A stretch of 30,902 nucleotides of DNA from the IMG/VR virus record IMGVR_UViG_3300030451_002304, positions 1 through 30,902 of that record, one strand, 5' to 3'. Numbering within the stretch: position 1 is the stretch's first letter; every line of letters begins with the position of its first letter. A model generated the notes under the pieces. The model saw only the letters and a list, made by a program, of their open reading frames with translations, searched no databases and was not told where the DNA came from. The position numbers and the translations under genes were made by a program. Source of the DNA: a virus. This document shows positions 13,463 to 22,283 of the stretch, piece after piece.

Positions 13463-13697
13463 GGTTTTTAAGTTTTATGTTATGCTGGTTCCATTTGTCA
13501 ACTTGCGGTTCCCACTGTTCCTCGCCCTGCATTACCCATTCTTCTAAGTGGGCAAGGTCTTCAGAGTAAAGGGGTTTGTCAGAATAGATGGAGGTGAATC
13601 CATCGAATAGTCCACCCGCATCGGTTACGAATTTTACGACAACATTACAGGACTCAACCTTCTCGTTGTCCATGTTAAGCATGTAAGTGTATCTCAT
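13416..13697 (-). CDS. 93-aa hypothetical protein
   Basis: Start ATG overlaps the methyltransferase stop (ATGA). The protein begins MRYTYMLNMDNEKVESCNVV, has an acidic/aromatic middle (EDLAHLEEWVMQGEEQWEPQ) and a basic C-terminus. It ends 47 bases inside the helicase gene. No family recognised. Coupling to the methyltransferase suggests co-expression. Confidence 0.6.
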   Translation of the reverse strand: MRYTYMLNMDNEKVESCNVVVKFVTDAGGLFDGFTSIYSDKPLYSEDLAHLEEWVMQGEEQWEPQVDKWNQHNIKLKNHERIRKEYTGDNPQG

Positions 13698-15196
13698 ATT
13701 AACCTTTGGATTAATGTGACAAATGCCTTGGCTGCGGTAGCAGGAACTACTCCGTTTCCCAAGAGCCTAAGTCTGTCCACCCTACTGTTAGACCCATTAG
13801 ATGTTCGACCCAGTTGGGGTTCAGCTTGCCCGTTGCTTTCCCGCAATGACCCGCTATGTCCTCCTCCAGATTGGCTTTGTTCCGATTGGCTAGATGCTCC
13901 CGGTTCTCCTCCGTTATCTCTGGGTGAACCTTGTTGGCTCTTGGTGTCGGCCACGACTCTTGGCTCTTCCCACTCTTGTTGAGCTTCGCCCGGTCTGGCT
14001 GGCCAACGATGGATGGGTGGTTGCTCAATCCAACCTGACCGAAGTTCGGTTGGTTGCCTATCTTGGTCCCCTCCGCTGTTGTTGGTGTTGGCCAGTTCTT
14101 GACTTGACCGCCCAGATAGAGAGCTTTCGGGTTTTCCTTTGTCCCTGCGTAGTCGCTCCCCTTGGCATCGTTGGCTATCGGAGTTGCCCAGTTCTGAGGT
14201 TGCATTACTTCCTCTCTGAGGTTCTTGCACCCGCCCTTCTTGGCTTTCTCTGACCTCTCCTCTGGCTTTCTCACTACATTCAGATGATCCATCGTGCTTG
14301 GCGTTGCCCAACTCTTCACTTGAGTGCTGAGTCCGTCCCCGCTTGTCTTGCTCGCTCCCTTGCGGTTGTGATTCCCGCATACATTCGGCGTTGCCCAGTT
14401 CTTCTGTTTCTCCTCCTCCAGTAGGGCTATCTTTTCTCTGAGTTGAATGTTGTTCCACTTGCCGGACTTGATCTGATCCAATCTCATCCCCCCCGACACT
14501 TCCGCAATCGTTGGAGTAGGCCAGTTCTCCTCGTGGGTCTCTACTGCATCCCGCAGTTTTGCTCCGAAGGTTTGATTGCTCCTGTGCCTCTTGCTCTTGA
14601 AGCCCTCGTTGGTCATCTCCGTTTCGATACGTCCGCCCTCCGCGTCCGATGTCCTCGCTGTTGGCCATCCCAAGGATGAAGACTCGCTTTCTCTGATGAG
14701 GTGCGCCGACTTCTTCCGCTGAGAATATTCCTGCCGTTGCTCGGTAACCCATTCCTTCCAACTCTCTGAGGACATACTGGAGAACTGGCTCTCCGTCCCC
14801 AGTTTTGCAGGAGAGGATTCCCTGTACGTTTTCAAGGAAAACAATTCTAGGTTGGCACTCTCTGATTCCGTCTGCGATGTAGGGGAAGAGGTGTCTTGGG
14901 TCTTCAGTAGCTTGACGCTTTCCAGCAGCTGAGAATGGCTGACACGGGAATCCTCCAGAGAGGATGTCCACGAGTCCACGAAACTTTCTGTAAGGGAAGG
15001 TTTTAACGTCCGTGAACACAGGTGCTGCATCCAGTTCTCCCGCTTCCATCTTTGCAACCAAGTTCGCGACAGGGAATCCTTCCCTCTCCACGTAAGCGAT
15101 TTCTCGCAGATTTGGGAGAACTCTTCTGAGTCCAAGCCCAATGCCTTCGTATCCTGAGCATAAGCTGAGGTGTGTAATTGTTTTGGTAATATCCAC
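13694..15196 (-). CDS. dcm-like: DNA (cytosine-5) methyltransferase
   Basis: 500 residues from a GTG start; no in-frame ATG exists between an upstream TGA and motif I. Motif I LSLCSGYEGIGLG (10-22), motif IV GGFPCQPFSAAGKR with catalytic Cys85, motif VI LENV (121-124), motif VIII QRKRVFILG (168-176), and motif X LLGNGVVPATAAKAF near the end. Between VIII and X, where the target-recognition domain should be (about 178-470), the protein is a hydrophilic Gln/Ser/Gly/Arg-rich chain with repeated ELGNA/ELANT units and no obvious fold. That same DNA carries a second long frame (13747-15198). Likely methylates phage DNA against host restriction; its specificity cannot be read. Confidence 0.9.
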   Translation of the reverse strand: MDITKTITHLSLCSGYEGIGLGLRRVLPNLREIAYVEREGFPVANLVAKMEAGELDAAPVFTDVKTFPYRKFRGLVDILSGGFPCQPFSAAGKRQATEDPRHLFPYIADGIRECQPRIVFLENVQGILSCKTGDGEPVLQYVLRELEGMGYRATAGIFSAEEVGAPHQRKRVFILGMANSEDIGRGGRTYRNGDDQRGLQEQEAQEQSNLRSKTAGCSRDPRGELAYSNDCGSVGGDEIGSDQVRQVEQHSTQRKDSPTGGGETEELGNAECMRESQPQGSEQDKRGRTQHSSEELGNAKHDGSSECSEKARGEVRESQEGRVQEPQRGSNATSELGNSDSQRCQGERLRRDKGKPESSLSGRSSQELANTNNSGGDQDRQPTELRSGWIEQPPIHRWPARPGEAQQEWEEPRVVADTKSQQGSPRDNGGEPGASSQSEQSQSGGGHSGSLRESNGQAEPQLGRTSNGSNSRVDRLRLLGNGVVPATAAKAFVTLIQRLI

Positions 15197-15198
15197 AT
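13747..15198 (-). CDS. Overlapping 483-aa frame with WPTP repeats inside the methyltransferase gene
   Basis: Same strand, shifted frame, open from ATG 15198 to TAG 13747, nearly the whole methyltransferase length. Its ATG overlaps the methyltransferase GTG (ATGTG). It is protein-like: LTWRGKDSLSRTWLQRWKRE near the N-terminus, then Trp-Pro/Ala-Thr-Pro units (GWPTART, NWPTPTI, NWATPNV, SWATPST, NWATPIA, NWPTPTT, SWPTPRA), and a C-terminus LNPNWVEHLMGLTVGWTDL. I recall WPTP...LNPxWVExLMGxPxGWT proteins in phages, often labelled methyltransferase or hypothetical. The LMGxxxGW motif looks like the LxGFP of C5-methyltransferase motif IX. It may be a separate protein or a frameshift product. Certain: the long frame exists. 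Uncertain: that it is translated. Confidence 0.65.
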   Translation of the reverse strand: MWILPKQLHTSAYAQDTKALGLDSEEFSQICEKSLTWRGKDSLSRTWLQRWKRENWMQHLCSRTLKPSLTESFVDSWTSSLEDSRVSHSQLLESVKLLKTQDTSSPTSQTESESANLELFSLKTYRESSPAKLGTESQFSSMSSESWKEWVTEQRQEYSQRKKSAHLIRESESSSLGWPTARTSDAEGGRIETEMTNEGFKSKRHRSNQTFGAKLRDAVETHEENWPTPTIAEVSGGMRLDQIKSGKWNNIQLREKIALLEEEKQKNWATPNVCGNHNRKGASKTSGDGLSTQVKSWATPSTMDHLNVVRKPEERSEKAKKGGCKNLREEVMQPQNWATPIANDAKGSDYAGTKENPKALYLGGQVKNWPTPTTAEGTKIGNQPNFGQVGLSNHPSIVGQPDRAKLNKSGKSQESWPTPRANKVHPEITEENREHLANRNKANLEEDIAGHCGKATGKLNPNWVEHLMGLTVGWTDLGSWETE

Positions 15199-15244
15199 TA
15201 ATAATCTTTCTAATTTGTTTGTTGGTTCATTTAATTGAGAAGTA

Positions 15245-15278
15245 ATAAAAAGGGGAGAGGCATGACCCCCTCCCCCTT
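15245..15278 (-). terminator. Intra-operon terminator/attenuator before the methyltransferase
   Basis: On the minus strand GGGGAGGGGG and CCTCTCCCC pair around TCATG, followed by TTTTTATTACTT. It sits in the 98-base gap between the SSB-like gene and the methyltransferase and should lower or gate downstream expression. Confidence 0.75.
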
Positions 15279-15294
15279 GATAGTCAATCAATCC

Positions 15295-17519: not shown

Positions 17520-18299
17520 TTATTGTTTTACTTCGGGTTCCATTCGTAGCATCCAGTAAAGGTTAGCCGCGGCTTTGGCTACACGGATACCCCACTGGCT
17601 TTCTTCGTCCGTCCACTCGTAGTGCATATGTTCTGCCGTCTCGCAGTCCACTATGACGGATCTTATCTTGGGCAGGTAAGGCAACTTTTGTAAGTGCATT
17701 AACATAAACGCTTCAATCGCTAGCTGACAGCAATCCTTCTGGTATCGTTTAGCCTTACCCTTAGTATTTACACGGCACTTGTAGTCCGCGAGAAAGATTC
17801 TGGAGTCCTTGATTCCTACGAAGTCAACGGAGCCGGCAATCTTGATGCCCCCGTGACTGACTACTTTCTCGCAGCCCAAGGCTTGGACATTGTTGTCATC
17901 AATCCAGTCCAAAAAAGGAGAAGCCCACTTGTCCCAGCATGACTTACCGGGGTGTTCGTCAATGCCTAGCACGTGGTGATTTATCATACGCTCGATAGTT
18001 CCGTGAACCGATGTACCGAACTCATGCGATGGTATCAACTCACCGTCCTTTGGATGCGGTCTAGTTCCGTAGACCATCTCTGCAAGATTAGCCCAAGGCA
18101 AATCCGGATGCTCTCTGGCTAAGTCCGTCATCATTTTTGGCTTGTAGACTTCATCAAGGAATGAGTCCTTGACTATGCCCAGCACGGTCGTGACCGATGG
18201 GTAAACGTCTGCTCCAGCTTTACGAGCCTGTGCAGGAGTCCCCACCTCGGCCTCAAACTGAGGCTCCGATGGGTTCTTGCAGTTATAGAAGTGACTCAT
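17520..18299 (-). CDS. PD-(D/E)XK exonuclease (RecB/Cas4-like)
   Basis: 259 residues. SHEFGTSVHGTIERMI (91-106, His99 and Glu103), IAGSVDFVG (D159), IFLADYKCR (D172-x-K174) and YQKDCCQLAIEAF (Gln/Tyr motif 186-198) are the ordered motifs of the RecB/Cas4 nuclease domain. VYPSVTTVL near residue 33 is the usual N-terminal strand. It probably resects DNA ends to feed the ERF annealing protein. Start overlaps the upstream stop as ATGA. No Cas4-type Fe-S cysteine cluster is clear. Confidence 0.88.
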   Translation of the reverse strand: MSHFYNCKNPSEPQFEAEVGTPAQARKAGADVYPSVTTVLGIVKDSFLDEVYKPKMMTDLAREHPDLPWANLAEMVYGTRPHPKDGELIPSHEFGTSVHGTIERMINHHVLGIDEHPGKSCWDKWASPFLDWIDDNNVQALGCEKVVSHGGIKIAGSVDFVGIKDSRIFLADYKCRVNTKGKAKRYQKDCCQLAIEAFMLMHLQKLPYLPKIRSVIVDCETAEHMHYEWTDEESQWGIRVAKAAANLYWMLRMEPEVKQ

Positions 18300-19707: not shown

Positions 19708-19774
19708 TGGTGGAGGTGGGAGGATTTGAACCCCCGTCCTTAGTTCTAGACCAAGTCGATCACCTTACACCCCC
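19708..19774 (-). ncRNA. 67-nt tRNA-like RNA resembling the tmRNA tRNA-like domain (alanine-acceptor type)
   Basis: Read on the minus strand: a 7-bp acceptor stem GGGGGTG/CACCTCC with all pairs formed and a G3.U70 wobble; discriminator A73 and encoded CCA; a 5-bp T-stem GGGGG/CCTCC with canonical loop TTCAAAT; a 5-bp arm CTTGG/CTAAG with a 7-base loop TCTAGAA; and between acceptor and that arm only 12 bases (TAAGGTGATCGA) that form no D-stem. Known: G3.U70 plus A73 is the alanyl-tRNA synthetase signature of tRNA-Ala and tmRNA; tmRNA lacks a D-stem, has a GATTCGAC-like segment in that place (here GATCGAC) and GGAC before the T-stem (here too). So this looks like a tmRNA tRNA-like domain closed by a short hairpin, without mRNA-like part or tag. 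Alternative: a degenerate tRNA with anticodon TAG and an unusual C33. Confidence 0.75.
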
Positions 19775-19819: not shown

Positions 19820-19848
19820 ATGCTACAGAAAAAACGTAGCCTTGTCTA
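19820..19848 (-). promoter_or_regulatory. Candidate promoter for the tRNA-like RNA
   Basis: Between the terminator at 19849-19882 and the RNA, the minus strand has TAGACA (19843-19848), a 17-base spacer and TAGCAT (19820-19825). Transcription would begin near 19813 and give a leader of about 40 bases that needs 5' processing. Confidence 0.4.
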
Positions 19849-19882
19849 CCAAAAAAGCCCGCACCGGGTAAGGGTGCGAGCT
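19849..19882 (-). terminator. Terminator of the 42-aa membrane gene
   Basis: Minus strand: AGCTCGCACC pairs with GGTGCGGGCT (10 bp with one T.G), loop CTTACCC, then TTTTTTGG. It isolates the tRNA-like RNA from upstream transcription. Confidence 0.8.
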
Positions 19883-21750: not shown

Positions 21751-21846
21751 TTAGTTGGCTCTCCCTATTTTATGGACGGCTTGAGACTCCCACGGAATTG
21801 TGGCTAGGTTACCAACTATGTCCCCCTTTACTAAGTCGTCATACAT
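21751..21846 (-). CDS. Possible 31-aa leader peptide
   Basis: Frame MYDDLVKGDIVGNLATIPWE then SQAVHKIGRAN, stopping in the AACTAA leader of the next gene. GCAGGG lies just before ATG. Composition is protein-like, but the length is too small to be sure. Confidence 0.3.
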   Translation of the reverse strand: MYDDLVKGDIVGNLATIPWESQAVHKIGRAN

Positions 21847-22283
21847 CCCTGCTTTACCAACAGAGAGAAGTTAGCGGTAGGACTGTCAAAGAACGGAACT
21901 GCACCCCCCAAGATGCACACCTTGCAACCTTATGCAAGCTTTTATTTCCAGATAGTTATTTCCCCTTGTGGCTTCCATTTCCGTGACTCCGTAGCATCCC
22001 CCTTCTTAGCCCCTTTATACGTGGCACTTGCTCCGAATCTGCCTCGCTGCGAGCCTCTCCTGCATGGATTGAATTAGGGAAAGATGCTGCGAATCCTTTC
22101 CGCTTCTGATAAATAAATAATTCCCTCACATGTGAACCCGGCTGCCACCCGGTAACTCGAGTTTCATAAATCATTGATAGCCAACGTAAAACAAGATCAG
22201 CAAACTCGATAAATCTGCAACGGGGGAGGAGGGGGTCAGCATCGAGCGCGACTAGAATAGTATATATCATCCAACGCCCCTCT
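21847..22283 (-). other. 437-base early leader region, no confident gene
   Basis: Only a weak minus frame exists (ATG 22270 to 21956, 104 codons, ends LRSHGNGSHKGK), basic and without family likeness. I see no tRNA, no iteron array and no clear origin. Because it follows the leftward promoter it should be transcribed as a long leader. Confidence 0.4.

Follow-up and report, generated by a model that had tools for sequence, protein, structure and literature searches.

A 67-nt RNA gene on the minus strand of a marine phage stretch (19774-19708, with its 5′ end at 19774) encodes the complete tRNA-like domain (TLD) of tmRNA – the RNA by which bacteria free stuck ribosomes – and the entire mRNA-like domain is absent. 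Complete TLD-only RNAs were recovered from at least 184 viral contigs by three pattern scans of IMG/VR, and these represent at least 125 distinct sequences. The RNA is probably a tag-less, phage-encoded tmRNA that relies on alanyl-tRNA synthetase (AlaRS), SmpB, and EF-Tu of the host and, by entering stalled ribosomes, displaces the host tmRNA in competition. TLD-only phage tmRNA is already known as a kind, and in the open-licence literature searched we found neither its breadth among viruses, nor the invariance of its alanine identity, nor a report of it in the group to which this phage belongs. The stretch analyzed, here referred to as the window, is 30,902 nt long.

Parts and class of the 67-nt RNA

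The RNA reads GGGGGUG-UAAGGUGA-UCGAC-UUGGU-CUAGA-ACUAA-GGAC-GGGGG-UUCAAAU-CCUCC-CACCUCC-A-CCA, and its parts, together with the two signals that precede it, are as follows.

19856..19882, minus strand: terminator-like hairpin that closes the gene preceding the RNA (sequence)
19820..19848, minus strand: weak match to a sigma70-like promoter, TAGACA-17-TAGCAT, which precedes the RNA by about 45 nt (sequence match)
19708..19774, minus strand: whole TLD-only tmRNA, 67 nt (Rfam RF00023, 56.9 bits; viral relatives; P2 covariation)
19768..19774, minus strand: acceptor 5′ strand GGGGGUG, including G3 of G3.U70 (7/7 pairs with 19712-19718)
19755..19767, minus strand: D-loop equivalent UAAGGUGA-UCGAC, single-stranded, without a D stem (tmRNA consensus alignment)
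19740..19754, minus strand: P2 stub UUGGU-CUAGA-ACUAA in place of the mRNA-like domain (compensating changes in the 67-nt type and the family)
19736..19739, minus strand: GGAC, the tmRNA-type junction 5′ of the T arm (tmRNA consensus alignment)
19719..19735, minus strand: T arm GGGGG-UUCAAAU-CCUCC (tmRNA alignment and pairing)
19708..19718, minus strand: acceptor 3′ strand CACCUCC (with U70), discriminator A73, and CCA (pairing; family conservation)

All of the features listed in the original prediction – the acceptor, the G.U at 3.70, A73-CCA, the T arm, a 5-bp arm, the lack of a D-stem, GATCGAC, and GGAC – are confirmed in the sequence. The acceptor GGGGGUG/CACCUCC forms seven of seven pairs with the G.U at exactly 3.70, the T arm and the arm replacing P2 each form five pairs of which one is a G.U (the latter closed by a 5-nt loop), CCA is encoded at 19710-19708 (minus strand), and GAUCGAC and GGAC match tmRNA.

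The Rfam tmRNA model RF00023 matches the RNA over its full length with a score of 56.9 bits (cut-off 47, E 5.6e-20), spanning model positions 1-374 with a deletion of about 312 positions that corresponds to the whole message part; tRNA genes in an RF00023 search mostly score below 30 bits. The tRNA-like domain of tmRNA is thereby represented in full (seven-pair acceptor, G3.U70, A73, CCA, T arm, no D stem, UCGAC, and GGAC), and the tag reading frame, resume codon, and pseudoknots of a full-length tmRNA are absent, with about 312 of the 374 model positions missing and a loop of 5 nt in their place. A complete mRNA-like domain within the same RNA, which would have spoken against the original prediction, was not found, and a search of the 35.1-kb record gave no further tmRNA piece. 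The order of the halves, 5′ and then 3′, differs from that of a permuted two-piece tmRNA, and there are no RF04321 matches over the cut-off in the window record or in 48 others. The RNA is not a canonical tRNA either: it has no D stem, and its loop varies in relatives. ARAGORN, which had been proposed as a check, calls neither a tRNA nor a tmRNA in the window, which speaks against a canonical tRNA. The RNA is phage-encoded and contiguous, has the standard order, and has a short loop replacing the message, features shared with the CDS-less TLD-only tmRNA of phage DS6A as that RNA is described.

The TLD fold of the RNA alone has a calculated energy of -18.7 kcal/mol, compared with -24.4 kcal/mol for the minimum-energy fold (shuffle z of -0.9). 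With a more stable fold thus available to the lone strand, support for the TLD fold within the 67-nt type is comparative and not thermodynamic.

TLD-only RNAs in viral genomes

The first scan used the pattern TCGAC...GGAC-T-arm with the acceptor left free and gave 117 viral stretches. Complete TLD-only RNAs make up a large share of these, and the others are ssrA 3′ ends, ordinary tRNAs, and chance matches. The third scan, which was blind to the acceptor, was restricted to the inner loop motif and the beginning of the T arm, and gave 41 matches. Matches in genome_contigs are mostly ssrA 3′ ends, with only about 10 TLD-only RNAs. UCGAC was a search criterion, and conservation of GGAC within the family is not independent because it belongs to the search pattern; the two G residues of the GG preceding UCGAC are kept in 75 and 65 of 87 representatives, respectively. 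TLD-only phage RNAs have apparently been overlooked, because ARAGORN does not call them in the records tested.

The P2 pairs were not used for selection in the scans and show the compensating changes across related phage contigs that the original prediction called for. The first five are standard in 401 of 435 cells among the 87 representatives (less than 85% alike), compared with 189 ± 10, and at most 219, in 2000 shuffles, which leave relatedness in. If the P2 partner is slid by one or two bases, pairing among these representatives falls well below half, and the pair types at each P2 position span GC, CG, AU, UA, and GU. Such covariation points strongly to a real RNA structure.

The family includes a short size class resembling the window RNA, with a plain loop on P2, and a common class, mostly 76-85 nt, in which P2 has about seven pairs and encloses an A-rich bulge on the 5′ side (AAAG or a like sequence), then a small hairpin, and an A on the 3′ side. 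The inner hairpins are diverse (CCG-CAYG-CGG, CUC-GAAA-GAG, CCC-GAAC-GGG, and others), and this diversity of stems, together with the small size of the loops, suggests that their role is structural.

A G3.U70 pair is the mark for alanine loading by AlaRS, and together with A73 it is present in all 125 distinct viral RNAs among the matches listed. Because selection of G3.U70 by the search criteria had to be excluded, the acceptor-blind scan was also considered: a perfect seven-pair acceptor is present in 40 of the 41 RNAs of this sample, and all 40 have G3.U70 and A73. An earlier set of 119 RNAs, drawn in part from bacterial contigs, contains one with a G-C at 3.70 (L296). Acceptor pairs 4-69 to 7-66 vary across the family, and the retention of G3.U70 amid covarying neighbor pairs would be hard to explain without charging by AlaRS; this invariance suggests that the RNA is charged, and does not act solely as an SmpB sponge.

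The 67-nt type itself is carried by 23 loci, including the window and its own copy (L118), in seven sequence versions with RNA identities to the window RNA of 0.82-0.99. At two of these loci, L058 and L108, the RNAs are 99% and 90% identical to that of the window, respectively, and the 150-nt flanks have identities to the window of 0.40-0.44, with a background for unrelated DNA of 0.33 (mean) and 0.44 (largest). The RNA type is thus kept where the flanks differ, more than by chance. The first two P2 pairs compensate within the type (UA to CG in one, and UA to UG or CG in the other), and the acceptor and T-arm pairs are uninformative on covariation because they do not vary there. A 158-aa gene lies 3′ of the RNA at most of these loci, with a 91-aa gene intervening in the window. 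A blastn search of the locus against INPHARED phages gave no match.

Several cultured phages are carriers of the wider family. Unannotated TLD-only RNAs scoring above the Rfam cut-off are present in Stenotrophomonas virus Jojan60 and in Streptomyces phages LuckySocke, GiJojo, pSt2308, and BRock; the GiJojo copy falls within a called gene, and the LuckySocke RNA is predicted at 17977-18057. Alone3 and Riptide have degenerate versions. Other candidates were rejected: Bongo has a full, annotated tmRNA; P3.1, Ruthy, and Niklas have merely a tRNA, a weak match, or no match; and SM1, Rb1, QDWS359, QDWS595, RpAliso, Tunturi_4, and S-CRM01 have permuted two-piece tmRNAs. The permuted genes lack a tmRNA annotation in Pseudomonas phage SM1, Stenotrophomonas phage QDWS359, Xanthomonas phage Rb1, Alcaligenes phage QDWS595, Ruegeria phage RpAliso, and Synechococcus phage S-CRM01 (loci L330, L331, L332, L337, L339, and L345). 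In Tunturiibacter phage Tunturi_4 (PP885687; L344) the permuted tmRNA (471-880) immediately follows gp53, whose product of about 115 aa carries the annotation of an RF-1-domain release factor, and the two are possibly a phage ribosome-rescue cassette.

Genomic context and candidate partners

The window record is a 35.1-kb virus contig with genes for a DnaB-like helicase, an Erf-like protein, an exonuclease, a methyltransferase, terminase, and virion proteins, and the RNA is located among minus-strand genes, behind the terminator-like hairpin and the weak promoter-like site. The sigma70-like match is not evidence by itself, because the region has two such matches with 1.2 expected. In syntenic relatives, the RNA is again preceded by the stretch GTAGCAT, and the upstream motif TCAAACGAGACTGC is not a repeated phage promoter in the window, because it occurs there once. 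Pfam searches of the nearest flanking proteins assigned no function. Elsewhere in the window, a RAGATH-24 RNA (Rfam 49.5 bits, cut-off 45.3) is present at 21818-21889 on the minus strand, about 2 kb upstream of the mini-tmRNA and on its strand, and RAGATH-24 is also found 2-2.7 kb upstream of the RNA in five related contigs (L017, L018, L031, L038, and L093). The DNA methyltransferase frame (500 aa; 13694-15196, minus strand) is overlapped on the same strand and in another frame by one of 514 aa (13747-15291), which is rich in repeated tryptophan-containing motifs and is probably the shadow of a repeat-rich stretch.

Contexts differ among carriers. The RNA is near helicase, Erf, and exonuclease genes in window-type genomes, within tRNA clusters in the Streptomyces phages, and, in another group (L120, L131, L135, L142, L179, and similar loci), apparently between portal and protease genes on its upstream side and the major capsid gene immediately downstream, with these functions assigned by eye. 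From these contexts, and from the partner searches described next, it follows that the RNA probably works in trans and together with factors of the host. In a single-cell contig of Prochlorococcus, perhaps from a cyanophage, a Pistol ribozyme match (L263, 1621-1716) is about 2.2 kb from the TLD-only RNA.

Searches of 49 carrier records, some of which are fragments, detected no SmpB gene although the positive controls worked, and host SmpB is therefore the likely partner. An RF-1-domain protein is encoded by one of the 49, 10 kb from the TLD-only RNA. One 123.6-kb virus (G022; L125, L348, and L349) has both a 392-nt full-length tmRNA (77588-77979), which ARAGORN also calls, and an 82-nt TLD-only RNA (46486-46567), along with many tRNA-like matches.

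Predicted function and relation to known systems

In the mechanism that we favor, host tRNA-processing enzymes would trim the TLD-only RNA and host AlaRS would charge it with alanine, it would bind host SmpB and EF-Tu, and ribosomes stalled on truncated mRNA would take up the charged RNA in their empty A site. The RNA has neither a tag message nor a stop codon, so that normal tagging could not follow and the RNA would compete with host tmRNA and block or divert trans-translation during infection. The TLD binds AlaRS, EF-Tu, and SmpB (PMC3929946); a molecule similar to TLD-only tmRNA strongly inhibits cellular tmRNA, according to the accounts of Mao et al. (2009) given in PMC4131195 and PMC11915505, and a TLD-like molecule is inhibitory whether or not it is chargeable (PMC4131195). 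The end-to-end Rfam match, P2 covariation, invariance of G3.U70 and A73, lack of SmpB genes in the carriers searched, and published precedent in DS6A together support a competitor, and all of these but the SmpB result likewise support the earlier proposal, in which a tmRNA mimic that can be charged but lacks the mRNA part may block rescue. Several points count against it: titration of SmpB alone needs no charging, yet G3.U70 is invariant; the full-length tmRNA of G022 is odd for a phage blocking trans-translation; and the lone strand is predicted not to favor the TLD fold.

The main rival, which is not exclusive of competition and to which we assign a lesser but appreciable likelihood, is an active rescue or tagging RNA, in which alanyl-TLD with SmpB takes the nascent chain and adds one or more alanines template-free by repeated entry, leaving a C-terminal alanine tail with release by other host factors. 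This is compatible with tmRNA inhibition but goes further, and would account for the invariant alanine identity and for the two RNAs of G022, as if these did different jobs. TLD and SmpB make poly-alanine without mRNA in vitro (Shimizu and Ueda 2006, as cited in PMC3929946), and tag-less mitochondrial tmRNA is thought still to be helpful with incomplete mRNAs (PMC11915505); however, the carriers tested have no co-encoded release factor or hydrolase, apart from the RF-1-domain protein 10 kb away. A bolder and more doubtful extension is that TLD-only tmRNAs are a large phage class adding alanine tails in this way, with the inner element that recurs in the 76-85-nt forms (an A-rich bulge, a hairpin such as CCGCAYGCGG, and then A) as a second functional part.

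The original prediction also raised a decoy for SmpB or AlaRS, and a pure decoy alone leaves the unvarying alanine identity unexplained. As a sink for AlaRS that slows host translation, the RNA would be expected to keep G3.U70 and A73, but AlaRS identity alone needs no UCGAC (a search criterion here), GGAC, or P2 arm, and the Rfam tmRNA alignment and covarying P2 point to tmRNA-specific partners, making this improbable. Slightly less probable still is a processing mark akin to tRNA punctuation, in which RNase P and 3′ processing separate neighboring phage genes and the RNA itself is functionless; the RNA is often between same-strand genes, in one group beside structural genes, but RNase P needs neither G3.U70 nor a covarying P2 arm, the RNA is kept despite differing flanks, and CCA is encoded in just 41 of the 125 distinct viral RNAs among the matches listed. 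Many prophages carry ssrA 3′ ends, but it is very improbable that this RNA is an ssrA gene in decay or an attachment-site copy remaining from integration, with both acceptor strands present and paired, a covarying stub cleanly replacing the message, and the structure kept in sequence-diverse copies; the covariation already contradicts this reading. Least credible is the stripped, D-arm-less tRNA reading CUA that had been put forward, as the UAG in the window loop gives way in relatives to a 5-nt CAAGC or UAAGC loop or to a small hairpin separate from it, none of the anticodon positions is conserved, and ARAGORN calls no tRNA.

In the open-licence literature found, DS6A (Mao et al. 2009, as cited in PMC4131195 and PMC11915505) is the one mycobacteriophage on which knowledge of TLD-only phage tmRNA is based, and there are now at least 184 viral contigs and several cultured phages. 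This breadth, with the constant alanine mark, suggests that phages probably interfere with ribosome rescue by such RNAs, and that interference looks to be a common phage strategy. If charging matters, a single change to G-C at G3.U70 should abolish function, and Streptomyces lividans phage LuckySocke makes function testable in the laboratory.

Among known systems, the TLD-only tmRNA of DS6A is of the same kind, likened here by description and not by sequence, and the window family represents other phages and hosts; nine 'standard, no CDS' sequences are noted among 97,179 (PMC11915505). Full-length phage tmRNAs, in one piece or permuted (Melnitz, PMC9004378; Pseudomonas phage SM1), share TLD signals with the window RNA but carry an mRNA-like part with a tag. 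The tag-less mitochondrial tmRNAs of jakobids and relatives (Jacob et al. 2004, as cited in PMC11915505; RF02544) have similarly kept the TLD and lost the message, with SmpB as partner as far as known, although their genes are organellar and usually permuted, whereas that of the window is contiguous and viral. The Mallomonadaceae plastid tmRNAs of about 65 bp (PMC11915505) resemble the window RNA in size and message loss, but are two sequences from plastid genes and not viral. The engineered Thermus thermophilus TLD (2CZJ, PMC3929946) is a laboratory construct of about the size of the window RNA in which the TLD halves are joined by a short loop – UUCG in place of the message – and which binds SmpB in the crystal; the phage RNA is its natural counterpart.
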